DNA of 34,925 nt from Nitrospirota bacterium (GTDB taxonomy: Bacteria > Nitrospirota > Thermodesulfovibrionia > UBA6902), in the NCBI GenBank assembly GCA_016213945.1, contig JACQZF010000076.1, positions 1-34,925 of the forward strand, in the 5' to 3' direction. The notes under the pieces are model-generated. The model ran no database searches, was not told the origin of the DNA, and saw only the letters and a list, made by a program, of their open reading frames with translations. The first letter of the stretch is position 1. Every line of letters begins with the position of its first letter. Both the position numbers and the translations under genes were made by a program. Below are positions 2,134 to 22,061 of this stretch, piece after piece.

Positions 2134-2970
2134 TCAGCTTATCTCTGGTTCTTTCCCCCTCTGATTAATAGCGTAGGTCCCGGTATCGCCGATAAATGGC
2201 AGAGCCAGCATCCACGGCAATGTAAGACGTTTGGCATCGCGGAATTGTGACAGGCCTATTACCATATTTGAATGTCCTGCAGAGGGCTGAGCGCGATAAG
2301 TGCCTAACAACCTGTCCCACCATGGAAAGTTAAATCCAAAGTTGCTGTTGGTCTCCCGTATAACAACTGAGTGATGGACCCTGTGCATGTCCGGCGTGAC
2401 AACAAGAAGCCTGAGGACTTTATCAATATTTATCGGGATGCGTATATTGCCGTGGTTGAACATCGAGGTTGCGTTTAAAAGCACTTCAAAGATGAGTACG
2501 GCAATAAAAGGCGGCCCGATTACCAGCACCACCACCATCTTAATCAACATGGAGAGGAGGATTTCTATTGGGTGAAAACGCAATCCTGTTGACACATCAA
2601 AATCGAGGTCAGCATGATGCATCATATGAACGCGCCAGAAGGCAGGGATTGTATGAAACATGACGTGTTGAAGATAAATGACAAGATCTAAGGTCAGCAC
2701 TCCGACAATTACAGAAAGCAGGTACGGCGTACTGACATTATTCATCAGGCCCCAGCCGGTTTCCTGCGCTATTTGAGCTAAGTTTACAGCCATAACAGGA
2801 AACAGCAACCGAAGTATTGCGGCATCAATAAAGACAATGCTCAGGTTGCTGAACCAGCGGACTTTTTTCGGAGTGGTTAATGTGCGGCGCTGGAAGAAAT
2901 ATTCATAGATGGCCATTATGCTGAATACGCCAAGGAAGAAACCAAGTCTTACGATAATTTCATAGTTCAT
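2134..2970 (-). CDS. Sterol desaturase / fatty acid hydroxylase family protein
   Basis: This 278-residue integral membrane protein has about four hydrophobic segments and the three histidine clusters of the fatty acid hydroxylase superfamily: HVMFH (about residues 102-106), HMMHH (115-119) and HRVHH (197-201). These ligate a di-iron centre that hydroxylates or desaturates a lipid with O2 in eukaryotic relatives. The bacterial substrates are mostly unknown, so no gene name is given. Its ATG overlaps the stop codon of the upstream glucosidase by one base (TAATG), which implies translational coupling. The DUF3047 gene follows 34 nt downstream. An oxygen-using enzyme would be notable if the host is a strict anaerobe. 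Confidence 0.85.
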   Translation of the reverse strand: MNYEIIVRLGFFLGVFSIMAIYEYFFQRRTLTTPKKVRWFSNLSIVFIDAAILRLLFPVMAVNLAQIAQETGWGLMNNVSTPYLLSVIVGVLTLDLVIYLQHVMFHTIPAFWRVHMMHHADLDFDVSTGLRFHPIEILLSMLIKMVVVLVIGPPFIAVLIFEVLLNATSMFNHGNIRIPINIDKVLRLLVVTPDMHRVHHSVVIRETNSNFGFNFPWWDRLLGTYRAQPSAGHSNMVIGLSQFRDAKRLTLPWMLALPFIGDTGTYAINQRGKEPEIS

Positions 2971-5618
2971 TACTTACACCAGCACCATTCAATCATTTCA
3001 GCCACAAGCCCTGTCCATCCGGTCTGATGGCCGGCCCCCAATCCACTGCACGTGTCGCCGTGAAAATATTCATGGAACAGGACGAGGTCTTTGAAATGAG
3101 GATCGCTGCGGTATTTCTCATCATCACCATGAGCAGGCCTCTTTCCATTTTGGTCCCTGATAAATATGGAAGTGATTCTCTGGGAAAGCACTTTGGCCAC
3201 ATCCCAGAGGTTCATGAAATTATTGGAACCTGTCGGGCATTCTACTTTTAATGTATCTCCATAATACAGGTAATACTTCTTCAACGCTTCAATTAAGAGA
3301 TAGTTGATGGGGACCCAGATAGGGCCTCTCCAGTTGGAATTGCCTCCATAAAGGCCGGCTATCGATTCGGCAGGCTCGTAATCAACTCTGTATTCCTTGC
3401 CATTGACTTTCATTGTGAAGGGATTATCTTTATGATATTTGGATATGGACCTGGTCCCACCGGGAGCCAGAAATTCATTTTCATCCAGCAGCTTTTGTAA
3501 TATCCTGACCAGCCGTCTCTTAGGCACGAGGGAAAGCAGTATATCCTTCCCCTCGCGCAGTTCTTCTATCGCAAGATACTTATTAAGGTTTATACGGTTG
3601 TTTCTGAACCATAACAGTCTTTTTCTGAAACCCTTAAATCTGTTAAAGACGTCTTTGTCTATCACGGATACTGCAAACAGGGAAGTGAGCCCCACTAAAG
3701 ATCTGACCTTGAGAGGCAGTTTATTCCCGTTCGGGAAATGAAGGGCATCATAATAGAAACCGTCTTCTTCGTTCCAGAGACCGTGTTCCCCGAGTTCGTT
3801 CAGTGATTCCGCTATATGCACAAAATGCTCAAAGAACTTTGATGCCGTGTCTTCATAAGAAGGATCTTCCTGCGCAATTTCAAGCGCCATATCCATGAGG
3901 TTCAGAGAGTACATTGCCATCCAGCTTGTGCCGTCAGCCTGTTCGATATGCCCGCCGGTAGGCAAGGCGCTGCTACGGTCAAATGCGCCTATATTGTCCA
4001 GACCGAGAAATCCACCCTGGAAAATATTATGCCCTTCAGAATCCTTCCTGTTCACCCACCATGTAAAATTCAGCAGCAGCTTGTGAAATACCCTTTTCAA
4101 AAAAACGATGTCCTTCTTGCCGCTGTCTCTTTTTTCAAGATTGTAAATCTTCAGTGAAGACCATGCATGCACAGGAGGATTTACATCGCTGAAATTCCAT
4201 TCATATGCAGGCAACTGGCCGTTGGGGTGCATGTACCATTCCCGCAGGAACAGGATGAGCTGTTTTTTCGCAAAGTCAGGATCGATCCTTGACAGAGGGA
4301 TGCAATGAAACGCCAGGTCCCAGGAGGCATACCATGGATACTCCCATTTGTCAGGCATTGAGATAATGTCCCTGTTAAACAAATATGGCCAGTCATGGTT
4401 TCTCCCATGTTCTCTGCTTTCAGGCGGTGAGGGTTGTCCTTTATCTCCCCTCAGCCACGACATGAGCTCATAGTTATAATACTGCTTGCTCCACAGCAAG
4501 CCTGCATATGCCTGTCTCTGCACCTGAATGACGTCGCTAACCGGCTCGTCAGGTTCAAATTGCCCATAAAATTGATCTGCCTCGACAATCCTCTGCTGAA
4601 ATATTGAGTCAAACTCTCTGTCAAAAGGACCGTCTTTAATTGTTTTGTTTGACAGGCGCAATTTAATAGTCTTGGATTCTCCGGATGGTATCTCAAAGCG
4701 GTAGACAATTTCACATTTTGTACCGTTATGTTTTTCCCTGAACATGGCAAAGTTATTGTTGACGACGGCATCATGGAAGGCATCTTTTACAAAGGGAGAA
4801 CTATTAGGCATTTGGAATAATTTTTCCGTGTTGGTTTCGTTTTCAGTAAAAAGGATGATGTCGGCTTTTTCAAAGTGTAAATAGTATGTCCCCATCTCTT
4901 CATGTACAGCTTCTACACTATTTCCGTCAGTCTGCCCGGATAATTTTATATCAGGCCTGGTTTTCATATTGCTGAATACCCAGGTATTTCTGAACCAGAG
5001 AGTCGGCAGAACAGTTATTCCGGCGCTCTCTTCACCGCGGTTGAATATCTCTATCTTTATCAGGATGTCTTCGGGGGCTGCTTTGGCGTATTCCACAAAG
5101 ACGTCAAAATATTTATTCCCCTCAAAAATGCCGGTATCAGGCAGTTCAAATTCTGGGTCTTGCCTTGTTCTCTTTTTATTCTCTTTCAGCAATTGAGCGT
5201 AAGGGAAAGCTGCCTGGGGATATTTATATAAATACTTCATGTAAGAATGTGTCGGAGTATTGTCGAGATAATAATAAAGCTCTTTGACGTCCTCTCCGTG
5301 GTTGCCTTCATACGGGTTTAATCCAAAAAGTCTTTCTTTCAGAATAGCATCATTGCCGTTCCACAGCGCCAATGCAAAACAGAGGTTCTGCCTTATGTCT
5401 GATATCCCGGCAAGGCCGTCTTCACCCCATCTATATACACGGGAACGAGCATGCTCATGCGGGAAATAATTCCAGGCATCTCCGTTTTCACTGTAGTCTT
5501 CACGTACGGTCCCCCATTGCCGTTCGCTTAAATACGGCCCCCAATTCTTCCAGAAGACTTTATGCGAGGCATTGTCTTCAAGCCGTTGCCCTTCAGTTGT
5601 TTTGTTTCCACTGTTCAT
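2970..5618 (-). CDS. GH63-like glucosidase (MGH1/YgjK type)
   Basis: This 882-residue protein has no signal peptide and is probably cytoplasmic. It matches the large glucosidases annotated as GH63 or mannosylglycerate hydrolase-like: an N-terminal beta-rich part (to about residue 350) followed by an (alpha/alpha)6 barrel. Family-like motifs include KWEYPWYASWDLAFH (about 424-438, with a candidate acid Asp in ASWD), GGFLGLDNIG, ADGTSWMAMYSLNLM, GNSNWRGPIWVP and, near the C-terminus, LFHEYFHGD and GAGHQTGWTGL, where the Glu of HEYF is a candidate base. It should release glucose or a related hexose from small glucosides; the exact substrate is unknown. It is the first gene of a three-gene minus-strand operon, divergent from a Crp/Fnr regulator and sharing its operator (5690-5707). 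Confidence 0.85.
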   Translation of the reverse strand: MNSGNKTTEGQRLEDNASHKVFWKNWGPYLSERQWGTVREDYSENGDAWNYFPHEHARSRVYRWGEDGLAGISDIRQNLCFALALWNGNDAILKERLFGLNPYEGNHGEDVKELYYYLDNTPTHSYMKYLYKYPQAAFPYAQLLKENKKRTRQDPEFELPDTGIFEGNKYFDVFVEYAKAAPEDILIKIEIFNRGEESAGITVLPTLWFRNTWVFSNMKTRPDIKLSGQTDGNSVEAVHEEMGTYYLHFEKADIILFTENETNTEKLFQMPNSSPFVKDAFHDAVVNNNFAMFREKHNGTKCEIVYRFEIPSGESKTIKLRLSNKTIKDGPFDREFDSIFQQRIVEADQFYGQFEPDEPVSDVIQVQRQAYAGLLWSKQYYNYELMSWLRGDKGQPSPPESREHGRNHDWPYLFNRDIISMPDKWEYPWYASWDLAFHCIPLSRIDPDFAKKQLILFLREWYMHPNGQLPAYEWNFSDVNPPVHAWSSLKIYNLEKRDSGKKDIVFLKRVFHKLLLNFTWWVNRKDSEGHNIFQGGFLGLDNIGAFDRSSALPTGGHIEQADGTSWMAMYSLNLMDMALEIAQEDPSYEDTASKFFEHFVHIAESLNELGEHGLWNEEDGFYYDALHFPNGNKLPLKVRSLVGLTSLFAVSVIDKDVFNRFKGFRKRLLWFRNNRINLNKYLAIEELREGKDILLSLVPKRRLVRILQKLLDENEFLAPGGTRSISKYHKDNPFTMKVNGKEYRVDYEPAESIAGLYGGNSNWRGPIWVPINYLLIEALKKYYLYYGDTLKVECPTGSNNFMNLWDVAKVLSQRITSIFIRDQNGKRPAHGDDEKYRSDPHFKDLVLFHEYFHGDTCSGLGAGHQTGWTGLVAEMIEWCWCK

Positions 5619-5663: not shown

Positions 5664-5734
5664 ATTGTAGTTTTTCCACCGTCATATGAATGTAAGGGCC
5701 ATTACATCTAATCGACATGCTGATTAATTATATT
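5664..5734. promoter_or_regulatory. Shared operator between divergent glucosidase and Crp/Fnr promoters
   Basis: The palindrome ATGTAAGGGCCATTACAT (5690-5707) is centred at 5698.5. Leftwards, a TACAAT -10 (5669-5664) starts 29.5 nt from the centre; rightwards, a TATATT -10 (5729-5734) starts 30.5 nt away. Both equal an activator site near -41.5, the class II position of Crp/Fnr proteins. One site can thus serve the glucosidase operon and the regulator gene at 5782. The promoters are inferred from sequence only. Confidence 0.65.
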
Positions 5735-5781
5735 AGAACGCAATCACAAAATAAATCAGTCGCGCCTATCAATAGGAAAAC

Positions 5782-6474
5782 ATGACACAGGAACGATCAA
5801 AACTATGGTATCTCAAAAATCTTGATATCTTCCGCTATCTCGGAGATGAAGAATATAAATTGCTCGACCGGTATTCCAATATGAGAGAAATAAAAAAAGG
5901 GGAAATGATATATTTTCAGGGATCCTCCGACAGCAATTTCTACATTCTGAAAAAGGGAGCCGTCAAGATTACAAAGCTCACTCCTCGGGGAAATGAAATC
6001 ATCCTCGATATACTTTCAGTCGGCACCATCTTCGGCGAAATGACGGTCTTGGAACCCCGGGAACGGGACGAATCCGCCATTGTAATCGAGGACGGGCTGA
6101 TATGCATTATGAATAGAGATGAATTCAACAGGTTCTCAAAGATGGTGCCGGGGCTTTCCGGCAAGATGACTTCGATGATCGAACTCAAACGCTGGAATAG
6201 AGAGAATAAAATACTTGACCTGCTCTACTGTACGGTTGAGCAGAGACTTGCGAAGGCTTTTATTAATCTCCTTGACGACTTCGGGATCCCTCATGACAAC
6301 GGACATTTGTTGCAGATCAGACTCACCCACAAGGACTATGCCGACCTTATCGCATCCACAAGAGAGACGGTCACCGCGACGCTCAATAAATTTAAAGCTG
6401 ACGGGCTTATTGATTTTGAAAATAAATATATTATGATCAAGTCGCTCGATAAAATCAGGGGCATGGCTGAATGA
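5782..6474 (+). CDS. Crp/Fnr family transcriptional regulator (paralogue 1)
   Basis: This 230-residue regulator has an N-terminal cyclic nucleotide-binding-type beta-roll (about residues 12-125; FILKKGAVKITKL-like core, GTIFGEM), a dimer helix and a C-terminal winged helix-turn-helix (about 150-225) with THKDYADLIASTRETVTATL. It lacks the four-cysteine iron-sulfur ligand set of true FNR, having only two Cys. The recognition helix RETVTA differs from RETVGR of E. coli CRP in having Ala where CRP has Arg185. It is 68% identical (157 of 230 positions, ungapped count) to the regulator at 13738, with an identical helix-turn-helix. A TGTAA-N6-TTACA palindrome lies upstream, so autoregulation is likely. 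AGGA precedes the ATG by 4 nt. The ligand is unknown. Confidence 0.9.
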   Translation: MTQERSKLWYLKNLDIFRYLGDEEYKLLDRYSNMREIKKGEMIYFQGSSDSNFYILKKGAVKITKLTPRGNEIILDILSVGTIFGEMTVLEPRERDESAIVIEDGLICIMNRDEFNRFSKMVPGLSGKMTSMIELKRWNRENKILDLLYCTVEQRLAKAFINLLDDFGIPHDNGHLLQIRLTHKDYADLIASTRETVTATLNKFKADGLIDFENKYIMIKSLDKIRGMAE

Positions 6475-6499
6475 GCCGGGTATTATAAAGTACGATATA

Positions 6500-6543
6500 A
6501 TGTAGGCTTGCTTACATACATCGTTTTTCTTCTGTATAATAAT
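6500..6543 (+). promoter_or_regulatory. Operator plus -10 upstream of the DsrE-like gene
   Basis: ATGTAGGCTTGCTTACAT (6500-6517) fits TGTAR-N6-YTACA. TATAATAAT follows at 6535-6543, putting the operator centre at about -39 to -42 depending on the hexamer used. This again matches a class II activator site. There is no good -35 element, as expected for an activated promoter. Confidence 0.55.
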
Positions 6544-6595
6544 CCCCTTTAAGAAAGCAGATAAAGGTTGTCTAAGTCCTATTTTATACATAGAC

Positions 6596-6623
6596 TGGAC
6601 ATCCTGTCTGTTCGTGATATAAT
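6596..6623 (+). promoter_or_regulatory. Sigma70-type promoter for the DsrE-like gene
   Basis: TGGACA (6596-6601) and TATAAT (6618-6623) are separated by 16 nt, with the start expected near 6630, just before the ribosome site at 6645-6650. It lies downstream of the operator-linked promoter, so the gene may have tandem promoters. Confidence 0.5.
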
Positions 6624-6658
6624 TTTTCAAAGAACACGATTATTAAAAGGTGAACAGA

Positions 6659-7183
6659 ATGAAAAGAATATTGAGCACATTGATATCGGTTATTATTCTT
6701 TTCATCGTTCCATTAATTTCATCTGCTGATGATAAAACAGATGTATTTCTTGTTCATCTTAAAACAAGCCTGAAGAAAGACGACGCGCAGATATGTGTCG
6801 CCTATAATGTCATGTGGGCGGCGCTGGAAGAGGGATTTAAGGTAAAGGTGCTCATTGATGCTGATGCCATAAATACCTACAAGGTCGGATGGTTCGGCAA
6901 AGACGATATTGAAGCATACAAGATACCGGAAAATCTCAGACAGGAACTCTCGAAACAATTCTCTGCTGATCTCGATGCCGTGCCAAAGACGTACGGAGCA
7001 TTCCTTATAATGCTGAAGGATCGCGGAGTTGAGTTCTATATCAATAAAGAGATGCTGATAGTCTCCAATATTGGAACGCCTGAAGAACCTTTGAAGCAAA
7101 TATCAGCCAAATTTTTCAAATCCGTAGCGCTTAAAGAGATAGTGAGAATGAGAGCTGAAGCAAAATATTATATGGCATACTGA
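6659..7183 (+). CDS. Exported DsrE-fold protein
   Basis: This protein of about 174 residues starts with a signal peptide (MKRILSTLISVIILF, cleaved near SSA-DD). The mature part has a DsrE/DsrF-type alpha/beta fold: an opening strand VFLVHLKTSL, a helix carrying DDAQICVAYNVMWAALEEG and a strand KVKVLIDADAI. Relatives handle sulfur (persulfide relay) or are uncharacterised. Only one cysteine (in QICVAY) remains, at a site that does not look like the DsrE active cysteine, so a direct sulfur-relay role is doubtful. ATG 6659 is preferred over GTG 6650 because AAAAGG (6645-6650) is well spaced for it. The next gene is the UGA-containing glutaredoxin, which suggests a thiol/selenol redox setting. 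Confidence 0.75.
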   Translation: MKRILSTLISVIILFIVPLISSADDKTDVFLVHLKTSLKKDDAQICVAYNVMWAALEEGFKVKVLIDADAINTYKVGWFGKDDIEAYKIPENLRQELSKQFSADLDAVPKTYGAFLIMLKDRGVEFYINKEMLIVSNIGTPEEPLKQISAKFFKSVALKEIVRMRAEAKYYMAY

Positions 7184-7249
7184 AAGTCTTGACACTGAGA
7201 GACGTGTCTATTATGAGAAACGTACAATGAAACCGTAAAGGAGTAATAT

Positions 7250-7486
7250 ATGGCAGAAAAAAGCATTGTCGTTTACAGCCAGACGGGCTGAATGTTCTGC
7301 TCGAAAGTGAAAGAGTATCTTTCACGAAAAGGCGTCATATTTACTGAACGGGATGTTGCCGGGGACGAAGCCGCGATAGATGAATTAAAGAAGATGGGTG
7401 TCATGACCACGCCGGTGACTGTAATTGACGGTGAAATGGTAATCGGGTTTGACATGAAAAAACTGGAACAGTTGTTGAATAAGTAA
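7250..7486 (+). CDS. Glutaredoxin-like selenoprotein (in-frame UGA at codon 14)
   Basis: A good ribosome site (AAAGGAG) precedes ATG 7250. The frame reads MAEKSIVVYSQTG, then TGA (7289-7291), then MFCSKVKEYLSRKGVIF and on to TTPVTVIDGEMVIGFD, 78 residues in all. This is a normal-length glutaredoxin/NrdH-type thioredoxin fold with its cis-Pro motif (TTPV). In relatives the position of the TGA is the first Cys of the CxxC active site, so the protein reads UxxC (U-M-F-C) if UGA is decoded as selenocysteine. A hairpin with bacterial SECIS features starts 16 nt after the UGA (7307-7325). The rest of the frame is intact, which argues against simple decay. Conventional gene calling would start at the ATG after the UGA and lose the active site. 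Predicted role: cytoplasmic dithiol/selenol oxidoreductase. Confidence 0.85.
7292..7325 (+). promoter_or_regulatory. Putative bacterial SECIS of the glutaredoxin gene
   Basis: After 15 unpaired nt following the UGA, GTGAAAG (7307-7313) pairs perfectly with CTTTCAC (7319-7325) around the loop AGTAT. The loop has G at its second position followed by U, as expected for SelB recognition. The loop G lies 24 nt after the last base of the UGA, within the known bacterial range. Confidence 0.7.
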
Positions 7487-7618
7487 GCATAGTTATGAAT
7501 ATTAAGATTAAAGACGGCCTTGGCACTTTGTCATAAGCGCTAATATTTGAATTATAGAAACAAGCACGCTATATCTTGCTGTTCATATAAAAAACGGAGG
7601 GAAAGGAGGTGAAATAAG

Positions 7619-7987
7619 ATGAAGATTTTAAAAACGTTATTAATGTCCTTAGCTGCTTCAGTATTTCTCTTTTCTGTGGCATTTGCAGGGGGCGGCGATG
7701 CAGAAAAAGGCAAAGCCCTTTTCAATGACCCGAAGGCTTTCGGAGGCAGCACATCATGCAGTTCATGCCATCCGGATGGAAAGGGACTGGAAAAGTCGGG
7801 GATGGAAGGCAAAAAGGATTGGAAAAATCCTGCCGGGACGTTCAAAAGCCTTGAAGAAACAATAAACGTGTGTATCACTATGGCAAATAAAGGCAAGGCG
7901 ATTGACACGAAATCCCAGGAAATGAAGGACGTAATAGCTTATATCAAGTCGCTGGGCAAGGAGATGAAAAAAGCGCCGGGTTATTAA
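7619..7987 (+). CDS. Small periplasmic monoheme cytochrome c
   Basis: This 122-residue protein has a signal peptide (MKILKTLLMSLAASVFLFSV, cleavage after AFA) and one CSSCH heme-attachment motif at about residues 47-51, so the heme is bound covalently in the periplasm. Methionines near residues 82 (ITMANKG) and 101 (SQEMKDV) are candidate sixth ligands. The C-terminal helix EMKDVIAYIKSLGKEM is typical of class I cytochromes c. It probably shuttles electrons, partner unknown. A perfect Shine-Dalgarno (AAAGGAGGTG) precedes the ATG, and a strong terminator follows the gene (8001-8035), so it looks like a short, well-expressed unit. A possible promoter upstream (TTGTCA 7528-7533, TTATAG 7552-7557) is weak. 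Confidence 0.88.
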   Translation: MKILKTLLMSLAASVFLFSVAFAGGGDAEKGKALFNDPKAFGGSTSCSSCHPDGKGLEKSGMEGKKDWKNPAGTFKSLEETINVCITMANKGKAIDTKSQEMKDVIAYIKSLGKEMKKAPGY

Positions 7988-8000
7988 AGCAAACATTTGA

Positions 8001-8035
8001 GGGAGAGGGGCCGTTCCCTCTCCCATTTTTATTTT
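8001..8035 (+). terminator. Rho-independent terminator after cytochrome c
   Basis: GGGAGAGGG (8001-8009) pairs with CCCTCTCCC (8016-8024) across a 6-nt loop and is followed by ATTTTTATTTT. This is a textbook terminator that separates the cytochrome gene from the transaldolase gene. Confidence 0.9.
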
Positions 8036-8104
8036 CCAATCAGTCAAGAAGCCGATGAGTTCACTGATGGATATCAAGAATACACTGAAAATGAAGGAGA
8101 CCCG

Positions 8105-8968
8105 ATGAGACCACGTGACCTTAAAACGAAGATATTTTTAGACGGCGGTGATCCCGGCGAGTCAAAGGCTATCATTAACCTTATCGGCTTTCTGGATGGA
8201 CAGACAACAAACCCGACTCTTATTTCAAAAAATCCTGAAGCGCGGGAACGTCTTAAGCGGGGTGATAAGTTCACAGAGGATGAGATATATCACTTTTATA
8301 GACATGTGGTCGGGGAGATATCATCGCTGATTCCTCAAGGGTCAATATCGATAGAAGTGTATGCAGACCTTTCAACAACCGCGGAGCAAATGTTCAAACA
8401 GGGGGAGCAGATGTTTGCATGGATTCCCAATGCGCATGTTAAATTCCCTTCCACAAAGGAGGGTTTGAAGGCAGCGGAGCAGGCGGTTAAAAATAAAATG
8501 CGCGTTAATATGACCCTCTGTTTTACTCAGGAACAGGCAGCAGCCGTATATGCCGCAACATCGGGCGCGAAGAGGGGAGATATATTTGTCTCACCTTTTA
8601 TAGGGCGTCTTGATGACAGGGGAGAAAACGGCATGGCTTTAATTGCCAATATCTTAAAGATGTTTAGTAAGAGCGACGGTCACGTGCTGGTACTGACAGC
8701 AAGTGTAAGAACATTTGGCCATCTGATGTATGCTCTATATCTTGGCTCGGATATAATTACAGCTCCATATAATATTCTGAAGGAATGGGGAGAAAAAGGG
8801 CTTCCGATGCCGACAGATGATTATGTCTATGATTCCGGAAAGTTAAGTGATATCCCATATAAGGATATCGACCTGTCCCGAAACTGGCAGGAGCATGATA
8901 TCAGTCATGATTTGACCATTAAAGGTATAGAGAGGTTTTCTGCGGACTGGAATTCGTTAATAAAATAA
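8105..8968 (+). CDS. tal: Transaldolase family protein
   Basis: This 287-residue TIM-barrel enzyme should transfer a dihydroxyacetone unit between sedoheptulose 7-phosphate and glyceraldehyde 3-phosphate in the non-oxidative pentose phosphate pathway. It opens with KIFLDGGDPGESKAI, then GFLDGQTTNPTLISKNP (the transaldolase TTNP motif), SIEVYADL, VKFPST (containing the likely Schiff-base Lys), NMTLCFTQEQA and VSPFIGRLDDRG. It is longer than fructose-6-phosphate aldolases and shorter than the E. coli TalB class. ATG 8105 is chosen because GGAG lies 5-8 nt upstream and the N-terminus then fits the family; longer reading would cross the terminator. The DUF3179 gene follows 15 nt downstream. RpiA and Gnd of the same pathway are encoded at 19.7-21.4 kb. 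Confidence 0.88.
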   Translation: MRPRDLKTKIFLDGGDPGESKAIINLIGFLDGQTTNPTLISKNPEARERLKRGDKFTEDEIYHFYRHVVGEISSLIPQGSISIEVYADLSTTAEQMFKQGEQMFAWIPNAHVKFPSTKEGLKAAEQAVKNKMRVNMTLCFTQEQAAAVYAATSGAKRGDIFVSPFIGRLDDRGENGMALIANILKMFSKSDGHVLVLTASVRTFGHLMYALYLGSDIITAPYNILKEWGEKGLPMPTDDYVYDSGKLSDIPYKDIDLSRNWQEHDISHDLTIKGIERFSADWNSLIK

Positions 8969-8983
8969 AGGAGGTAAATAACA

Positions 8984-9628
8984 ATGGCGATGATAAAAAG
9001 AATTACGTTTATTGCTGTGTTGATCATAAGTCTTATTGGCTGCACAAGTCAGGTTGCTCCATCCGTTTCCGTCGTTCGGGAAGACGGCAAGACATACATT
9101 GTGGATAAAACCGGATACAAGTGGGATGTCACCCAGGCAGAATCGATCGGATTCAAGCCTGATAAATTTCAGTATGGTATGGGGAAAGACGCGATTCTCC
9201 CTCTCGATGCTTCCGAGCTGAGTGACGACAAAAAAGACGTCCCTGATGATCTCCGCATCATCGGTGTTGAAGAAGGCCCAACTGCACAGGCGTATTCCGT
9301 GCAAAAGCTCCGCAGTCATGAGGTGGCGAACAGCGCCATCGGATCAAAGCCTATAGCTGTAGGCTATTGACCACTTTCAGACCTGGCGGCTGTGTACAGT
9401 CGCGAGCTTGACGGACAGACATTGACGATTGCGCCTGCAGGCTGGACATACAATAACACCTTTGTATTATATGACAAAGAAAGCGGGACCCTCTGGTATC
9501 CTGAAAGAGGCGGACTAAAAGGCATTCAGGGCAAGTATTTCGGACGGGTCCTTACAAAAGTCTCATCCGAAGATATTCGATGGGGGAAATGGCAGAAGAA
9601 ATATCCGGAATCGAAGATCCTGAAATAG
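8984..9628 (+). CDS. DUF3179 lipoprotein, candidate selenoprotein (UGA at codon 129)
   Basis: AAAGGAGG precedes ATG 8984. The N-terminus is a lipoprotein signal (lipobox LIGC near residue 20). The frame continues through RIIGVEEGPTAQAY, HEVANSAIG and SKPIAVGY, meets TGA at 9368-9370, and continues in the same frame with PLSDLAAVYSRELDG, LYDKESGTLWYPERG and WGKWQKKYPESKIL to a TAA, 214 residues in all. Both halves align end to end with DUF3179, whose hallmark is a YCPLC motif. Here the first Cys is the UGA codon and the second is Ser (Y-U-P-L-S). A SECIS-like hairpin follows with the same geometry as in the glutaredoxin gene. Selenocysteine is therefore the best reading; a nonsense mutation is the alternative. 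The function of DUF3179 is unknown; surface redox chemistry is my inference. Confidence 0.8.
9371..9403 (+). promoter_or_regulatory. Putative bacterial SECIS of the DUF3179 gene
   Basis: Fifteen nt separate the UGA from GCGGCTG (9386-9392), which pairs with CAGTCGC (9397-9403; one G-U pair) around the loop TGTA. The loop has G at its second position followed by U. The G is 24 nt from the UGA, identical to the glutaredoxin element, while the stem sequences are unrelated. Confidence 0.65.
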
Positions 9629-9658
9629 ATAGTCTGCCATTGCTGTGTAAATGCAGTC

Positions 9659-10339
9659 TTACTGTTTCGTGTGCTTTCCGAAATATTTATCGAAAAATAG
9701 CGGTTTGTGTTTTTCTATCCACCGAGGAAGGATGAAGAAGATCGCGACCATGCAGACCCCTAATACTGTAGAAATGCCTTTATGAACAATGAAAACAGCC
9801 CCGAAGGAAGTATAGACAAATGTCAGAGGTATCATGCCCAGGAAGGTCATTATCGTAAATGCCCGGAGCGACATCTTCGTAAGCCCGGCGCCATAGCTGA
9901 CAATATCGAACGATATGAAAGGCACAAGCCGGGAAATAAACACTACTTTTGACAGCAGCTTGTTAGAGCACTGTGTGCAGAAATTGATATGCCCGCCGAC
10001 GAACCGTTCCAGTACTTCACGTCCCAGAAACCTTGCGATCAGAAAGCTGACAATTGCACCTGCCAGTCCGCCGACAACCGAATAGAGAGTCCCCAAGATA
10101 GGCCCGAATACCGCACCGGCTGTGATATCAAGGGGAAGACTGGGAATGGGACTGATCACAACCGCCACTGCCATCAAGAACATGTAAAAGAGAGGGCCGA
10201 GCATCCCTGCATTATTCAGCATGACTTGCAGTCTCTCAGGATTGAAAAACGACGTAATGTCCCAAGTGGAATGGATAAGGTAAAGAACGACAATCAGAGC
10301 AATAAAAATAACGATCTTTGTTCGGGGATATCTTTTCAT
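9659..10339 (-). CDS. TVP38/TMEM64-type (VTT domain) membrane protein
   Basis: This protein of about 226 residues has some five to six hydrophobic helices and the VTT/SNARE-associated core DITAGAVFGPILGTLYSVVG, followed by SFLIARFLGREVLERFVGG. The family (DedA relatives) is linked to lipid scrambling or transport at the membrane, though the function of this member is unknown. The Cys pair in FCTQCSNK is unusual. Start choice: ATG 10339 begins MKRYPRTKIVIFIALIVV, a normal N-terminus; the frame is open further upstream but that part overlaps the preceding gene and does not look like the family. It lies 49 nt after the Cys-rich gene, in the STAS-led operon. Confidence 0.82.
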   Translation of the reverse strand: MKRYPRTKIVIFIALIVVLYLIHSTWDITSFFNPERLQVMLNNAGMLGPLFYMFLMAVAVVISPIPSLPLDITAGAVFGPILGTLYSVVGGLAGAIVSFLIARFLGREVLERFVGGHINFCTQCSNKLLSKVVFISRLVPFISFDIVSYGAGLTKMSLRAFTIMTFLGMIPLTFVYTSFGAVFIVHKGISTVLGVCMVAIFFILPRWIEKHKPLFFDKYFGKHTKQ

Positions 10340-10388
10340 ATTTATTGCATTAGTGTATCGATTCCGTGAGAAAATGAACAGGCTTCTT

Positions 10389-10763
10389 TTACACTTTCGC
10401 TTTGGGCCAGCTTTTGACCACCTGAAGAACTTCCCGAACATAAGCACATTCACACTTGGAATGGCAAGGCAGCAGATTATTTCTGATATGACAATACCCC
10501 AGACATTCTTCACCATCCGTCAGGCGATCCTGGAAAATAGGCCTGTCATTCAGGTCTATAAAGAATTGAGCCTTAATTGAAACCGTAGTACCACATGTAT
10601 GATTGAATAAAAACAATCCTTCCGTCAGCTCTCTGAAATCTGCCTGATATCCGATGATTTTAATGCCGGGATCAGCGAGAAAAGAGTTCCTCGTATCCCA
10701 TATATGCTCGCAGTTTGTACACTTTTTAAAAACTGATTTTATCAGAGGATGATCGCTTTTCAT
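10389..10763 (-). CDS. Conserved Cys-rich hypothetical protein
   Basis: This 124-residue soluble protein carries clustered cysteines and histidines: CTNCEHIW near residue 15, FNHTCGTT near 53, and ECLGYCHIRN followed by LPCHSKCECAYVRE near 85-108. The spacing suggests one or two structural metal sites (zinc or Fe-S). I recognise it only as a type of conserved hypothetical protein seen in sulfate- and metal-reducing bacteria; no function can be assigned. It lies 31 nt downstream of the STAS gene and 49 nt upstream of the VTT gene, so the three are probably cotranscribed. Confidence 0.7.
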   Translation of the reverse strand: MKSDHPLIKSVFKKCTNCEHIWDTRNSFLADPGIKIIGYQADFRELTEGLFLFNHTCGTTVSIKAQFFIDLNDRPIFQDRLTDGEECLGYCHIRNNLLPCHSKCECAYVREVLQVVKSWPKAKV

Positions 10764-10794
10764 TTTAATTCATGTAAATATTATGGGGTACTTA

Positions 10795-11154
10795 TTAAAC
10801 CCCATCTTGATGAATATCTATCATCTCCTTGTCAAATTTCACCGTTCTTTTTTTGTTCAATAAAATATCTTTCATAATAATATCTTCGATTGCAGACAAG
10901 CGGATTCCTGTCAATATCAATGGTTTTTTAAATCTTGCCGATATGTTACAAGCTTTATCCAGTAGTCGGCAGCATAAAGTATCTATCCTGGTCACGCCGC
11001 TCAGGTCAAAAATTGCAAAGTCCATACCATGGATTGCTTTCATTAAGATCAATGCTAATTCATCCTGATTCTTGACAGTTATTTCTCCATTAATCGTATA
11101 GATTCCGATATCTCCTGACGGTTTATTCTTGAAATGGTTAAATATATAATTCAT
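10795..11154 (-). CDS. STAS domain protein (anti-sigma antagonist-like)
   Basis: This protein of about 119 residues consists of one STAS domain: INGEITVKNQDELALIL, the central strand FAIFDLSGVTRIDTLCCRLL, then FKKPLILTGI. In SpoIIAA-type antagonists the conserved strand ends in D-S with the Ser phosphorylated; here the position is Thr (IDT), so phospho-switching could be altered or lost. The second ATG (11154) is preferred because AAGGAG lies 6 nt before it; an in-frame ATG at 11172 has no ribosome site. The gene heads a probable three-gene operon with the Cys-rich and VTT genes. A Crp-type palindrome and -10 lie about 120-160 nt upstream. Confidence 0.8.
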   Translation of the reverse strand: MNYIFNHFKNKPSGDIGIYTINGEITVKNQDELALILMKAIHGMDFAIFDLSGVTRIDTLCCRLLDKACNISARFKKPLILTGIRLSAIEDIIMKDILLNKKRTVKFDKEMIDIHQDGV

Positions 11155-11272
11155 ATTCTGCTCCTTACTCATGCTAACGAAGCAAGCTTAATATTACGCC
11201 TCTTCCATCTCTATTCCTTTTATCATGTATGGCATTCTGAGAATAAAAACAGTTTTCAAGAGCTTTTCAAAA

Positions 11273-11315
11273 ATTTTATAAAAATGATGCAGAGAAATCT
11301 GTAAGCTTCACTACA
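11273..11315 (-). promoter_or_regulatory. Operator and -10 for the STAS operon
   Basis: On the minus strand TGTAGTGAAGCTTACA (11315-11300) fits TGTAR-N6-YTACA. A TAAAAT -10 (11278-11273) begins 29.5 nt from its centre, the class II (-41.5) arrangement. The predicted transcript would have a leader of about 110 nt before the STAS gene. Confidence 0.5.
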
Positions 11316-11422
11316 CCATTTGTATCTGTTTCGTTTCAATATTAAATAAGATACAAGGCATGGAGCGGGTCTATTAACTTAATTGTGTCAATCCGTATCG
11401 GCCCGAGAGGGGAAAGCTTTAG

Positions 11423-11460
11423 ACCACAGAGACACGGAGAACATCCGTGCCCTCTGTGGT
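11423..11460. repeat. Imperfect 38-bp inverted repeat
   Basis: ACCACAGAG at the left end pairs with CTCTGTGGT at the right, and an inner ACGGA pairs with TCCGT, giving a long imperfect hairpin. The wording resembles the dispersed 'CCACAGAG' repeats found in many bacterial genomes. No T-tract flanks it on either strand. The remainder of 11155-11482 holds the STAS promoter and nothing else recognised. Confidence 0.6.
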
Positions 11461-11482
11461 TAAGTTAGTCGTTATCCAAAAA

Positions 11483-11701
11483 TTACTTGTGTGTTTCGCA
11501 GGATGATGTGCCACAGCAGGAAGAAGTCCCGCAGGTCTTGATCCCGAAGATGCTGTAAACAGGGCACCAGCCTATAAAAGCCGTAATGAGTGGGACAAGC
11601 CCTATAGCTCCCCACCAGCTTTTATAAGTAACTCCAAGGACAATTGCGGCAAGCCCTGCAATTATCCTGATAGACTTATCTAAACTTCCAATGTTTTTCA
11701 T
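11483..11701 (-). CDS. DUF2892 (YgaP-like) small membrane protein
   Basis: This 72-residue protein opens with MKNIGSLDKSIRIIAGLAAI and has two membrane segments (about 12-28 and 30-46) typical of DUF2892, the transmembrane module of YgaP-like rhodaneses. The segment GWCPVYSIFGIKTC matches the family. The tail is unusually Cys-rich (CGTSSCCGTSSC), which could bind metal or exchange thiols. No rhodanese domain is fused. It follows the truncated regulator by about 46 nt, a pairing (Crp/Fnr next to DUF2892) that is common. RBS: AAAGGAGG shortly before the ATG. Confidence 0.85.
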   Translation of the reverse strand: MKNIGSLDKSIRIIAGLAAIVLGVTYKSWWGAIGLVPLITAFIGWCPVYSIFGIKTCGTSSCCGTSSCETHK

Positions 11702-11747
11702 TATGTTCCTCCTTTCGGGTTCAGGCGTATTGTCTGCTTAAAGTATA

Positions 11748-11987
11748 TCATGCAGAAAGCATATCGTATGTGACAATGTCACAAATTTCAGCAACTTTAT
11801 AGACCCTGACCGTGCCTGATATTATTAAAGCCAGTTGCCTGCACTCGTCGCCTTCAAGGAAGATAATCTTGCCTTTAGGTATTCGCATAATTATGGCATG
11901 TGACAGAAGCCGTTCCCGGACTTCCGCCTCCGCATCTTTCAGGAAAGGAAAGACCTGACAAATCTTTTCTAATGCGCTTTCTTCCAT
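11748..11987 (-). pseudogene. Truncated Crp/Fnr regulator (sensor part only)
   Basis: From ATG 11987 (TTG 12002 is the longest option) the product is only about 79 residues: LEKICQVFPFLKDAEAEVRERLLSHA, then IPKGKIIFLEGDECRQLALI and SGTVRVYK, which match the first half of a Crp/Fnr cyclic nucleotide-binding-type domain. It stops soon after, before the phosphate-binding cassette region, the dimer helix and any helix-turn-helix. It cannot bind DNA by itself. It still has an operator-like palindrome upstream and the common partner gene (DUF2892) downstream, so it is most likely a deletion relic of a full regulator. It belongs to a different Crp subfamily from the paralogues at 5782 and 13738. Confidence 0.75.
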
Positions 11988-12040
11988 AAATATTGAATTC
12001 AATTATAACAGATTCCAAAACGGAGACCTCCTGGATCAGA

Positions 12041-12069
12041 CTATTAATAGGTTTGTAAGCATCCTTACA
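12041..12069 (-). promoter_or_regulatory. Operator-like palindrome upstream of the truncated regulator
   Basis: TGTAAGCATCCTTACA (12054-12069) is a good TGTAR-N6-YTACA site. On the minus strand a TATTAATAG segment follows only 12-16 nt from its centre, so a factor bound here would cover the -35/spacer region. That would repress rather than activate. An AGGAGG lies at 12032-12027. Confidence 0.4.
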
Positions 12070-12102
12070 TTATTTGTATCTGATTCATTGCAATATTGAT
12101 TA

Positions 12103-12245
12103 GTGTCTGTGTATAAACTCAGCATTTGAACCGTCATTCCCGCAGTTTGTTGAGCGGGAATCCAGTCTTTTCAGTAAGTTCTGGATACCCGATTAAGGAC
12201 TTCGGGTATGACGAAAATAAAAAGTGGCAATTTATACATAGACTC
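12103..12245. mobile_element. 143-bp MITE with TA target duplication (IS630/mariner-like)
   Basis: The ends are inverted repeats: GTGTCTGTGTATAAACT (12103-12119) against the reverse complement of 12229-12245, GAGTCTATGTATAAATT, with 14 of 17 positions identical. Each end is flanked by TA (12101-12102 and 12246-12247), the target duplication of IS630/Tc1-mariner elements. The interior contains nested foldbacks (GTCATTCCCG with CGGGTATGAC; GCGGGAATCCAG with CTGGATACCCG) and no open reading frame. It must be moved in trans. The remainder of 12002-12353 outside this element contains only the operator above and a possible -10 (TATAAT, 12288-12293). Confidence 0.7.
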
Positions 12246-12353
12246 TAATTAAGATATAGATATGGAAAAACCGATTCATGTTCAGTTTATAATATTCATC
12301 GGCAATCGATGTTGATTTATAGCTGCTAATCGCATTATAAGTGTGTTTATAAA

Positions 12354-13043
12354 ATGAAATCAGACATAATATCCATAATAATGCCGGTGTTCAACGAGGC
12401 AAAAAATCTCCGCAACACGCTTGGACAACTACGTTTATCAGACAACGAAGAGTTGATAGTTGTTGACGGCGGAAGCGTTGATGGAACCTTATCTATAGCC
12501 CGTGAATATACCGGGAAAGTTTTTCAGACGAGGTCCGGCAGGGCAAGCGTCATGAACTTCGGCGCACAAAAGGCAGAGGGTGATATACTTCTCTTCCTTC
12601 ACGCTGATTGCATCCTGCCGGACAAGGCCTTTGCACTGTTAAGGGGAGTTCTTGGCGATAAGCGCGTTGCGGCAGGCGGATTTGACCTCGGGATATCTGA
12701 CCCAAGAGTACGTTTCAGAATTATTGAATCCGCTGCAACTATCAGGGCGCACATGACATCCCTTATCTACGGGGACCAGGGGATGTTTTTGAAAAAGGAT
12801 ATTTTTGACAGCATAGGTGGTTTTGCGGACATACCTTTGATGGAAGACATAGAAATATCATTGAGACTGAAAAAACTGGGTAAGATAGTTTTCCTAAGAC
12901 CGCCCATGAAGGCATCTCCGAGACGCTGGCTAAGAGAGGGCGTCTTATACACTACATTCAGAGACTGGTTAACCGCCTTTTCGTATACGTTCCTGAAAAT
13001 TGATCCGGGAAAACTCGTCAAATATTATAAGGACGTCCGATGA
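12354..13043 (+). CDS. TIGR04283-type glycosyltransferase (rSAM/selenodomain-associated transferase 2)
   Basis: This 229-residue GT-A family 2 glycosyltransferase opens with IISIIMPVFNEAKNLRNTL, then ELIVVDGGSVDGT and GRASVMNFGAQKAEGDILLFLHADC (DxD-like HAD), and later IYGDQGMFLKKDIF and GGFADIPLMEDIE. The GRAxxMNxGA and HADC features are characteristic of TIGR04283, a family named for its link to selenodomain radical SAM proteins and implicated in arsenosugar synthesis. The partner TIGR04282 gene overlaps it by 4 nt (ATGA), so the two are translationally coupled. No ArsS-type radical SAM gene lies in the window. No obvious Shine-Dalgarno precedes the ATG. Confidence 0.85.
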   Translation: MKSDIISIIMPVFNEAKNLRNTLGQLRLSDNEELIVVDGGSVDGTLSIAREYTGKVFQTRSGRASVMNFGAQKAEGDILLFLHADCILPDKAFALLRGVLGDKRVAAGGFDLGISDPRVRFRIIESAATIRAHMTSLIYGDQGMFLKKDIFDSIGGFADIPLMEDIEISLRLKKLGKIVFLRPPMKASPRRWLREGVLYTTFRDWLTAFSYTFLKIDPGKLVKYYKDVR

Positions 13044-13636
13044 ACGATAATGCACTTATAATAATTGCAAAATATCCTGAAGAGAAAAATGTGAAGACAC
13101 GGCTGAAGGGGTTAATGCCGGATGAAAAAAGGCTTGCCCTCTATATCTCCATGCTTGAAAATACACTGCGTAAGCTGAAATCAGTCCCGGGAGTGGATAC
13201 ATATATCGCATACGCTCCTGAAGGCGGAAAAAATTATTTCTCACGATTCGGTGTCGGGCTTATTCTACTGCCTGAAGGAGATCTCGGGGTAAGAATGTTT
13301 CATGCATTCAGAGAGCTGTTTAAGACAGGTTATAAGAGAGCGGCCCTTGTCGGAGCGGATATTCCCGATCTCTCATCAGCAATAATCCTGAAGGCGTTTA
13401 CGTTATTGTCCTCAGACGATATTGTATACGGCCCTGCAAAAGACGGCGGTTATTATCTGGTCGGCATGAGGAAGCTCATTAAAGAGGTTTTTGAAGATGT
13501 GCCGTGGTCCTCTGAGCAAACTTTGAAAAGGAGTATCGAAAAAGCCGGGCAATTCGGATTCAGTGTAGCCTTCACAAAAACGCTTTCCGATGTGGACACT
13601 ATCGAAGATGTGAGAAGAGCAGGTCTCATGCCTTAA
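13040..13636 (+). CDS. TIGR04282/DUF2064 nucleotidyl/glycosyl transferase (rSAM/selenodomain-associated transferase 1)
   Basis: This 198-residue GT-A-like protein has ALIIIAKYPEEKNVKTRLKG at the N-terminus (nucleotide-binding K-TRL motif), then GDLGVRMFHAFRELF, KRAALVGADIPDLS with the GAD/IP metal-binding motif, and VYGPAKDGGYYLVGM. These define the DUF2064/TIGR04282 family. Its ATG overlaps the stop of the TIGR04283 gene (ATGA), and the two families are well-known partners in the selenodomain radical SAM / arsenosugar context. The substrate is unproven. The gene ends about 20 nt before the operator region of the next Crp/Fnr gene. Confidence 0.85.
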   Translation: MNDNALIIIAKYPEEKNVKTRLKGLMPDEKRLALYISMLENTLRKLKSVPGVDTYIAYAPEGGKNYFSRFGVGLILLPEGDLGVRMFHAFRELFKTGYKRAALVGADIPDLSSAIILKAFTLLSSDDIVYGPAKDGGYYLVGMRKLIKEVFEDVPWSSEQTLKRSIEKAGQFGFSVAFTKTLSDVDTIEDVRRAGLMP

Positions 13637-13656
13637 AAAATGGATCACTGATCTTC

Positions 13657-13727
13657 ATGTAATGGACATTACATATATGTCGTGGGATAATTACTATATT
13701 AAAAGTGAAGAGATGACACATATGTCA
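13657..13727 (+). promoter_or_regulatory. Autoregulatory operator and promoter of Crp/Fnr paralogue 2
   Basis: ATGTAATGGACATTACAT (13657-13674) is almost identical to the operator at 5690 (2 of 18 positions differ). A TATATT -10 (13695-13700) begins exactly 29.5 nt from its centre, giving -41.5. A second palindrome, TGACACATATGTCA (13714-13727), lies just downstream of the predicted start and right before the ribosome site, where binding could repress. Confidence 0.65.
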
Positions 13728-13737
13728 AGAGGGTAAA

Positions 13738-14430
13738 ATGACTCAGGAACATACCAAATTTTGGTACCTCAAGAATATTGATATCTTCAGCCACCTCAGG
13801 GATGAGGATATCAGGATGATCGATCAATATTCCCTAATGCGTGAAATTAAAAAAGGAGAAATCCTCTTTCTGCAGGGTTCATCTGACAAAAATTTTTATA
13901 TCCTGAAAAAGGGCGCAGTAAAGATTACAAAGCTTACTCCCCAGGGTAATGAGATCATCCTTGATATCTTCTCAGGCGGCACAGTATTTGGCGAAATTGC
14001 GGTTATGACTCATGAGAGCAGGGACGAGTCTGCAGTTGTTGTTGAAGACGGACTTATCTGTATCATGAAAAAAGAAGATCTTGAAAGGCTCATACGGATG
14101 GTGCCGGGGCTTGCCATTAAAATAAACAAGATGATCGGTCTGAAGCTGTGGAAAATAGAAAACAAACTCATTGAACTGCTTTACCGAACAGTTGAGCAAA
14201 GACTTGCAAAGACCTTTCTTAACCTTCTCGATGATTTCGGAATCCCTCATGACAGAGGATACCTGTTAAAGGTTAAACTCACTCACAAGGATTACGCAGA
14301 TCTCATTGCATCTACGAGGGAAACCGTCACTGCAACACTCAATAAATTCAAGAAAGAAGAAATCATTGATTTTGAGGGCAAATATGTTTTGCTCAGATCA
14401 CTCGATAAAATAAAGGCGCTGGCTGAATGA
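13738..14430 (+). CDS. Crp/Fnr family transcriptional regulator (paralogue 2)
   Basis: This 230-residue paralogue of the regulator at 5782 has the same architecture: a cyclic nucleotide-binding-type roll (about 12-125, with ILKKGAVKITKLTPQGNEII), a dimer helix and a winged helix-turn-helix with THKDYADLIASTRETVTATL identical in both. The identical recognition helix predicts the same DNA target. The sequences diverge most at about residues 21-30 and 91-120, the sensing side, so the two may answer different signals at shared sites. It lacks FNR-type cysteine ligands. It starts a long plus-strand run and overlaps the aquaporin gene by 4 nt (ATGA). Confidence 0.9.
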   Translation: MTQEHTKFWYLKNIDIFSHLRDEDIRMIDQYSLMREIKKGEILFLQGSSDKNFYILKKGAVKITKLTPQGNEIILDIFSGGTVFGEIAVMTHESRDESAVVVEDGLICIMKKEDLERLIRMVPGLAIKINKMIGLKLWKIENKLIELLYRTVEQRLAKTFLNLLDDFGIPHDRGYLLKVKLTHKDYADLIASTRETVTATLNKFKKEEIIDFEGKYVLLRSLDKIKALAE

Positions 14431-15257
14431 AGACGAAATATTCTCACGATTTTCTCGGCGAGATGTTTGGAACTTTTATACTGGTATTTTTCGGGTGCGG
14501 TTCTGTTGCAGTGACTGTTCTTTTTTCAGCCCATGTCGGACTATTTCAAATAGCTGCCGTGTGGGGAGTCGGAGTAACGCTTGCTATTTACGCAACGCGT
14601 CATCTGTCGTGCGCCCATCTTAATCCGGCTGTAAGCGCGGCTATGGTGGCGGGGAAAAGAATGTCTTTGAAAAAACTTCCCGTCTACATCGTTGCACAAT
14701 TTTCAGGGGCCTTTCTTGCAGTTTCAGTTCTATATATTATTTATGCAGGTTCAATAGCCCAGTATGAAATTCTTCACGGGATCGTCCGGGGAACACCGGA
14801 ATCTGTCAGGACAGCAATGATATTCGGTGAGTTTTACCCTAATCCTTCAGCCGAACCAGCGGCTTCGGTTTCGATGATAAACGCGTTCCTCGCAGAATTT
14901 ATCGGGACATTCGTTCTCGTTTCTCTGATCTTTGCGTTAACCGAAGGGTGCAATGTCGGAAGGCCGGATGGTTCGGTATCCCCTTTCTTTATAGGACTGA
15001 CTGTGACGGCGCTCATAAGCATTATTGCTCCTCTGACTCAGGCCGGGCTTAACCCGGCAAGAGATCTTGCTCCAAGGATGTTTGCGTACCTTGCGGGCTG
15101 GAAAAATGCCGCCTTGCCTGACAACCGGTATGGATTTTTGATCGTGTATGTTCTCGGCCCATTAGCCGGGGGCATTCTTGCTTCAATCGTATTTACATAT
15201 GTTATAGAGCCGATTATGAAAAACAAAAGCAATGAGACCAACTGTAATTGCAGTTAG
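14427..15257 (+). CDS. MIP family channel (aquaporin / glycerol facilitator)
   Basis: This 276-residue six-helix channel has the two NPA boxes of the MIP family: HLNPAVS near residue 69 and GLNPARD near 210, the latter with the Asp typical of glycerol facilitators (GlpF side). Further family marks are FLGEMFGTFILVFFGCGSVAV at the start and FLAEFIGTFVLVSLIFAL in the second half. It should pass water, glycerol or similar small neutral solutes through the inner membrane; arsenite or another metalloid acid is possible given the nearby arsenosugar-type genes. That link is inference. The start codon overlaps the regulator stop (ATGA). A Cys pair (NCNC) ends the protein inside a strong hairpin. Confidence 0.88.
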   Translation: MKTKYSHDFLGEMFGTFILVFFGCGSVAVTVLFSAHVGLFQIAAVWGVGVTLAIYATRHLSCAHLNPAVSAAMVAGKRMSLKKLPVYIVAQFSGAFLAVSVLYIIYAGSIAQYEILHGIVRGTPESVRTAMIFGEFYPNPSAEPAASVSMINAFLAEFIGTFVLVSLIFALTEGCNVGRPDGSVSPFFIGLTVTALISIIAPLTQAGLNPARDLAPRMFAYLAGWKNAALPDNRYGFLIVYVLGPLAGGILASIVFTYVIEPIMKNKSNETNCNCS

Positions 15258-15264
15258 TCTCATT
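15231..15264. repeat. Hairpin over the aquaporin stop codon
   Basis: AATGAGAC and AACTG (15231-15238, 15240-15244) pair with CAGTT and GTCTCATT (15251-15255, 15257-15264), a long stem with a single A bulge on each arm. On the plus strand it is followed by GAGAAAAATT, not a T-tract, so it is not a standard forward terminator. It may stabilise the upstream mRNA or attenuate the downstream gene. Confidence 0.6.
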
Positions 15265-15291
15265 GAGAAAAATTAATCAGGTCAATAAGGC

Positions 15292-19665: not shown

Positions 19666-19686
19666 GGAAGTAATGGGCAGATGTAT

Positions 19687-19705
19687 GTCACATATCTCCT
19701 GTGAC
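19687..19705 (+). promoter_or_regulatory. Palindrome in the rpiA leader
   Basis: GTCACA (19687-19692) and TGTGAC (19700-19705) form a perfect inverted repeat with a 7-nt spacer, about 25 nt before the rpiA start. It could be an operator or an RNA hairpin near the ribosome site. It differs from the TGTAR-N6-YTACA sites. Confidence 0.35.
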
Positions 19706-19730
19706 GAACGAGAGAGTGAAGGGAATTTAC

Positions 19731-20423: not shown

Positions 20424-20448
20424 TTTCATGAAATAAAAGGAGGGAAAT

Positions 20449-21351: not shown

Positions 21352-21373
21352 ATCTCAGGGGAAGTTACAGTGC

Positions 21374-22015: not shown

Positions 22016-22061
22016 AATAATGCTGACTCCATATAACCATTAAAACTGAGGAGGTAATTTT

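Follow-up and report, generated by a model that had tools for sequence, protein, structure and literature searches.

Five copies of one palindrome, TGTAR-N6-YTACA, lie at the promoters of a gene cluster encoding two CRP/FNR-type regulators in an uncultured Nitrospirota genome of 3.5 Mb. We estimate a probability of roughly 86% that these palindromes are operators of a single specificity common to the two regulators, P0001 and P0002, which would act as class II activators of a clustered regulon. The sites, their spacing from promoter elements, their conservation, and their co-occurrence with the regulator can be read directly from the sequences.

Positions of the palindromes and their clustering

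The window, i.e., the whole stretch of 34,925 nucleotides that was analyzed, contains five exact copies of the palindrome, all of them intergenic and within 8 kb, just as the earlier note on this DNA had reported. The sites and the two regulator genes are listed below, and the scores are those of the orthologue matrix described in the next section.

5691–5706, site 1, TGTAAGGGCCATTACA: divergent promoter common to crp1 (plus) and the glycosidase operon (minus); score 24.4
6501–6516, site 2, TGTAGGCTTGCTTACA: heads the DsrE-like/glutaredoxin/cytochrome c/transaldolase/DUF3179 unit; score 19.7
11300–11315, site 3, TGTAAGCTTCACTACA: promoter of the STAS operon (minus); score 17.3
12054–12069, site 4, TGTAAGCATCCTTACA: probable promoter of a glycosyltransferase operon (plus); score 18.3
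13658–13673, site 5, TGTAATGGACATTACA: heads the crp2-aquaporin-PPDK-like-rpiA-gnd unit; score 21.2
5782–6474, plus strand: CRP/FNR-type regulator 1 (crp1, P0001, 230 aa), with Pfam domains cNMP_binding and HTH_Crp_2
13738–14430, plus strand: CRP/FNR-type regulator 2 (crp2, P0002, 230 aa), 68% identical to P0001

When one mismatch was allowed, eight matches were found in the window against 2.0 ± 1.4 expected, and none of 100 shuffles reached eight; the three additional matches fall outside the interval considered in the earlier note (5690–13674). In the genome as a whole, the exact pattern occurs 14 times and a reversed control pattern 17 times, so the total does not exceed background; the clustering does, with a scan probability of about 3e-7 for finding five of the 14 copies within 8 kb. 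Eight of the nine exact copies elsewhere in the genome are inside long ORFs and were taken as background, and the ninth is intergenic.

Conservation of the sites with the regulator

At E ≤ 1e-50, orthologues of P0001 were identified in 10 of the 395 genomes from this phylum; the nine same-genus genomes examined yielded none. Their distribution is patchy, and further loci, from Nitrospirota and a small number of Desulfobacterota, came from a scan of a named collection. In all 16 distinct orthologues (≥ 50% identity), the gene is preceded at 41–397 nt by a palindrome that matches at no fewer than 9 of the 10 arm positions. Upstream of 12 outgroup regulators (31–38% identity) from Ignavibacteria, Bacteroidota, KSB1, and Acidobacteriota, no nearby palindrome was found. 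The best palindrome upstream of each orthologue was picked as its site, and the consensus of these sites is TGTAAK-N4-MTTACA; the half-sites are conserved across genera, and the N4 core and the flanks are not. Site 2 has a near-identical counterpart at locus L041 (TGTAGGCTTCCTTACA), immediately past the 3' end of the orthologous regulator gene and ahead of a cytochrome c gene.

A matrix was constructed from the 16 orthologue sites of other genomes only, with the window sites left out. In the window, it gave the five sites scores of 17.3–24.4 and the next best position 9.4, in agreement with the earlier claim that there are no further convincing copies in the window, and a score of ≥ 17 was reached in none of 60 simulated windows. 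The genome was scanned by pattern (the exact degenerate pattern and the strict pattern with one mismatch; the one-mismatch matches C38:12415 and C73:205936 were left out), and only one other convincing intergenic site was detected, at G000:C16:4032, with a score of 19.8. The genes flanking it are transketolase followed by glucose-6-phosphate dehydrogenase (zwf) on the minus strand and a YtkA-CCP_MauG di-haem peroxidase fusion on the plus strand. YtkA and CCP_MauG genes adjoin the regulator at L038, L046, and L048, and transketolase adjoins it at L031/L134 and L051. This site on contig C16, absent from the building of the matrix, is the strongest single confirmation of the regulon. An intergenic match on contig C18 (score 16.5) was rejected, as it shares bases with a gene's stop codon and an inverted repeat resembling a terminator comes after it. 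According to the earlier note, matrix hits spread randomly between coding and intergenic DNA would speak against a regulon; what we found is that the five sites are the sole high scorers in the window, and that the sole other convincing intergenic match in the genome is at functionally matching genes. The proposal of a local regulon of two CRP/FNR paralogues with class II activation is supported, with the correction that this regulon is not purely local, having at least one additional site on contig C16.

We also compared the number of sites between genomes with and without the regulator. The strict pattern gave 22 sites against 7 for the control in nine regulator-bearing genomes, and 5 against 15 for the control in twelve relatives without the regulator (p of about 4e-6, with the four sites of the genome itself included). 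Some strict sites are inside ORFs (4 of the 22, in genome G052, and several in other regulator-bearing genomes), so that part of this enrichment is background and the true enrichment is in the promoter sites. Two regulator-bearing genomes, G203 and G120, have no strict sites and one-mismatch sites only. The relative G002 has kept one site, probably as a relic, and has no close orthologue of the regulator.

Promoter geometry, the regulators, and competing explanations

A hexamer with at least five of six matches to TATAAT starts 29.5 or 30.5 nt from the palindrome center in 15 of the 28 site-target pairs; in 2,000 rotations, the number of such pairs averaged 1.1 and never exceeded 5. This peak corresponds to class II activator spacing, as had been claimed from the sites at 5691 (both directions), 11300, and 13658, where all the expected hexamers were found: TATATT at 30.5 nt on the plus side and TACAAT at 29.5 nt on the minus side of site 1, TAAAAT at 29.5 nt on the minus side of site 3, and TATATT at 29.5 nt from the center of site 5. 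Site 2 has TATAAT at 26.5 nt and AATAAT at 29.5 nt, and site 4 has AATATT at 30.5 nt on the plus side; on the side of the truncated regulator, it has no -10 at class II distance. No class II -10 was found on either side of the C16 site or at L044. The layout of a class II promoter, with the site center about 41.5 nt upstream of the start and the -10 about 29.5 nt from the center, is present relative to predicted starts.

Both regulators contain a cNMP-binding domain and a Crp-type HTH above the gathering score. The AlphaFold model (pLDDT 83.8) has the CRP fold, with a TM-score of 0.91 to GlxR, and the closest structures to the P0001 model are GlxR/MtCRP and NtcA. The best NCBIfam match of both proteins is NtcA, with 66.8 and 78.0 bits against a TIGR03697 equivalog cut-off of 244.95. 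The recognition helix reads S-T-R-E-T throughout the clade; nearly all of the outgroup regulators have S-R-Q-[TS] instead. The N-terminal cysteines of an FNR-type [4Fe-4S] cluster were not found, and neither P0001 nor P0002 has a Cys before residue 107. At the position aligned with the cAMP phosphate-binding residue of MtCRP, most clade members have Arg and some have H or K, and the following residue is mostly Asp/Asn, versus Thr in MtCRP; judging from these residues, binding of cAMP by the clade is doubtful. Two other residues were considered: an invariant Glu97 in place of the cAMP Arg was dropped because the MtCRP alignment places Arg95 there, and an invariant Cys108 as a clade-specific redox sensor was not supported, as this residue is also invariant in the outgroup regulators.

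P0001 and P0002 are predicted to bind the sites, and the same site would be read by both paralogues. It is unlikely that they bind the sites but mainly repress, or negatively autoregulate their own promoters. CRP-family proteins can both activate and repress, some targets have no -10 at the class II distance, and L037, L038, and L040 have an additional TATAAT at 25.5 nt; however, the -10 peak at 29.5–30.5 nt (15 of 28 pairs against 1.1) is the spacing required by a class II activator, whereas repressor sites have no fixed spacing of this kind. Activation rather than repression is therefore the reading that the geometry favors, at the level of a prediction.

Much less probable is that the true binder is another of the several CRP/FNR-type proteins encoded in the genome, e.g., the C74 paralogue (32% identical), with the neighborhood of P0001 and P0002 being incidental. 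The lone site of G002, in a genome with no close orthologue, is consistent with such a binder, but same-genus relatives have paralogues of 27–32% identity and yet few sites (5 in 12 genomes), and the sites are directly upstream of a gene of the P0001 clade at 16 of 16 loci. It is least probable of all, and we consider it extremely so, that the sites cluster by chance or belong to copies of a short repeat or a mobile element. A 49-nt repeat places site 3 in a duplicate of the promoter that carries site 4, and because both are in this stretch they are not fully independent, but the remaining sites have only the palindrome in common, and conservation across genera is confined to the half-sites. 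The clustering probability remains very low even with sites 3 and 4 counted as one, and the orthologue footprint also disfavors this explanation; a chance cluster was rejected on the site counts, the matrix scores, and the clustering probability.

The proposed regulon and its relation to known systems

The genes around the sites are listed below; operon assignments were made from gene spacing only.

1329–2099, minus strand: DUF3047 protein, glycosidase operon
2134–2970, minus strand: FA_hydroxylase, glycosidase operon
2970–5618, minus strand: MGH1-like/GH63-type glycosidase, heading the apparent operon with FA_hydroxylase and DUF3047 behind site 1
6650–7183, plus strand: DsrE-like secreted protein (name from the earlier note), with a 36% identical homologue at L043 and no Pfam or NCBIfam match
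7253–7486, plus strand: glutaredoxin with an in-frame TGA in the active site (Pfam Glutaredoxin; NCBIfam YruB/Uxx-star families)
7619–7987, plus strand: SoxA/TsdA-type small c-type cytochrome, in the unit headed by site 2
8009–8968, plus strand: transaldolase (Pfam TAL_FSA)
8984–9628, plus strand: DUF3179 protein, reading through an in-frame TGA
9659–11172, minus strand: apparent operon behind site 3, comprising VTT/TVP38 (9659–10516), a 124-aa protein (10389–10763), and STAS (10795–11172), all on the minus strand
11483–11701, minus strand: YgaP-like TM protein, not clearly under a site
11748–12002, minus strand: truncated cNMP-domain protein, not clearly under a site
12354–13043, plus strand: TIGR04283 glycosyltransferase-like protein ("arsenosugar biosynthesis" by NCBIfam name)
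13040–13636, plus strand: TIGR04282 glycosyltransferase-like protein (the same NCBIfam wording)
14427–22673, plus strand: apparent operon behind crp2, with gaps of ≤ 46 nt, including aquaporin/MIP, a 1457-aa PPDK-like protein, ribose-5-phosphate isomerase A, a 6PGDH-type enzyme, a HAD hydrolase, and an FMN reductase

The promoter targets named in the earlier note were kept, with the exception of the truncated regulator at site 4. This target is not favored, having no class II -10 on its side; in G002, the orthologous TIGR04283 gene is preceded by a conserved copy of site 4 with about 30 nt of its flank, and the site therefore probably drives the TIGR04283/TIGR04282 operon (12354–13636). Several of the other genes also recur near the regulator or its sites. 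The SoxA/TsdA-type cytochrome is the most recurrent gene of the regulon (beside the regulator or a site at L041, L027/L133, L122, L125, and L044), a glycosidase homologue is directly downstream of the regulator at L051, and the closest VTT homologue (51%) is beside a site scoring 24.1 at L128. The TGA codons of the glutaredoxin and DUF3179 genes probably encode selenocysteine; SelB was found in the genome, and the DUF3179 gene of G002 has the same TGA split, at 85% identity. The rpiA gene is the sole copy found in the genome, and zwf has a second copy with no detected site.

In the mechanism that we propose, a homodimer or a mixed P0001/P0002 dimer would bind TGTAAK-N4-MTTACA, centered about 41.5–42.5 nt upstream of the transcription start, and recruit RNA polymerase as a class II activator. 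The two proteins would thereby activate their own genes, the glycosidase operon, the DsrE-like/seleno-glutaredoxin/cytochrome c/transaldolase/DUF3179 unit, the STAS-VTT operon, the TIGR04283/TIGR04282 operon, and the crp2-aquaporin-PPDK-like-rpiA-gnd unit. Their targets in other parts of the genome would be transketolase-zwf and the YtkA-di-haem cytochrome c peroxidase gene. The presence together of pentose phosphate enzymes, glutaredoxin, cytochrome c, and cytochrome c peroxidase suggests a role in NADPH supply and oxidant defense. At somewhat less than even odds, the regulon may counter oxidant stress by providing NADPH via the pentose phosphate pathway, together with peroxidase/cytochrome capacity in the periplasm.

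The regulon is new and well supported, and it belongs to a familiar type without introducing a new kind of mechanism; neither it nor its motif was described in the literature covered by a partial search. It provides a sharp motif, a regulator, and a target list for uncultured anaerobes with few described regulons. It also connects pentose phosphate enzymes and a cytochrome c peroxidase with the SoxA/TsdA-like cytochrome c, TVP38/VTT, TIGR04282/TIGR04283, the PPDK-like 1457-aa protein, and the probable selenoproteins (DUF3179 and glutaredoxin). More tentatively still, the regulators could be an undescribed CRP/FNR subfamily, patchy in Nitrospirota and Desulfobacterota. It would respond to a metabolite or an oxidant rather than to cAMP and, through an NtcA-type operator, tie the pentose phosphate pathway to redox genes of periplasmic cytochromes/peroxidase and of selenoproteins, making it the equivalent, outside the cyanobacteria, of the NtcA carbon-redox switch.

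Among known systems, the class II promoters of E. coli CRP/FNR have the same site center (in our case some 41.5 nt ahead of the predicted start), TGT half-sites, and N6 spacing, whereas the half-site sequence differs, P0001 and P0002 have no FNR-type N-terminal cysteines, and their recognition helix reads R-E-T-V-T-A rather than the R-E-T-V-G-R of E. coli CRP. The cAMP-responsive GlxR and Mycobacterium tuberculosis CRP are the closest solved structures (TM-score 0.89–0.91, 24–25% identity). Their half-site is TGTGA, in contrast to TGTAA in the clade, and the Arg-Thr of MtCRP is mostly replaced by Arg-Asp/Asn, with the Arg itself not invariant. NtcA of cyanobacteria, which belongs to the same CRP-fold homodimer family, activates promoters of the form GTAN8TAC-N21-TAN3T (PMC2758279, PMC5460508) and is also reported to target genes of the oxidative pentose phosphate pathway (PMC5460508). 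The Nitrospirota site is exactly GTA-N8-TAC, and the -10 follows at N22–N23, within the N20–24 or so of an NtcA-type layout. The host, in contrast, is not a cyanobacterium and the regulon is another one. Since the best match to NtcA is far below the cut-off (67 and 78 bits against 245) and the closest folds are those of GlxR, MtCRP, and NtcA, we regard these regulators as NtcA-like at the DNA but do not file them as NtcA; the operator and promoter layout of NtcA would thus be in use by a distinct CRP/FNR clade outside the cyanobacteria.

Selenocysteine candidates with in-frame TGA codons

Two genes in the window are interrupted by an in-frame TGA:

8984-9628, + strand: DUF3179 protein gene, with the TGA at 9368-9370
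7253-7486, + strand: glutaredoxin gene, with the TGA at about 7289-7291

In the DUF3179 gene, the reading frame continues past the TGA (context GY-U-PL), and reading through this codon raised the Pfam score from 24 bits to 103 bits. The same TGA split is present in the same-genus relative G002, at 85% identity. Judged from the sequence, the DUF3179 protein is probably a new selenoprotein family member. The TGA of the glutaredoxin gene lies inside the active-site motif (QTG-TGA-MFC), and when it is taken as selenocysteine, the protein fits the YruB/Uxx-star glutaredoxin families. A SelB gene was found in the same genome. Elsewhere, the regulator orthologue at locus L045, in a Deltaproteobacteria MAG, carries an in-frame TAG at 8277-8279 and is otherwise intact.

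Island copies and homologues in other genomes

L148 (G002:C10), 7709-15165: island copy with DUF3179, a broken transaldolase and a TIGR04283 gene with one relic site
15292-19665, + strand, in the window: gene for a 1457-aa PPDK-like protein with PPDK_N and C-terminal PEP-utilizers domains

G002 has no close regulator orthologue and has kept the island copy, which is decaying, its single site probably being a relic. About 1000 N-terminal residues of the 1457-aa protein lie outside any assigned domain, and its homologues occur close to the regulator or a site at three loci (L038, L042 and L130).

Promoter duplication around site 4

11300-11348 and 12054-12102: 49-nt promoter duplicate, each copy containing a predicted binding site
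about 12130-12215, in the gap separating site 4 (12054-12069) from the glycosyltransferase gene: inverted-repeat-like sequence (CGTCATTCCCGC...GCGGGAATCCAG...)

The two promoter copies share 80% identity at a spacing of 754 bp. Separately, the inverted-repeat-like stretch resembles a small mobile repeat.
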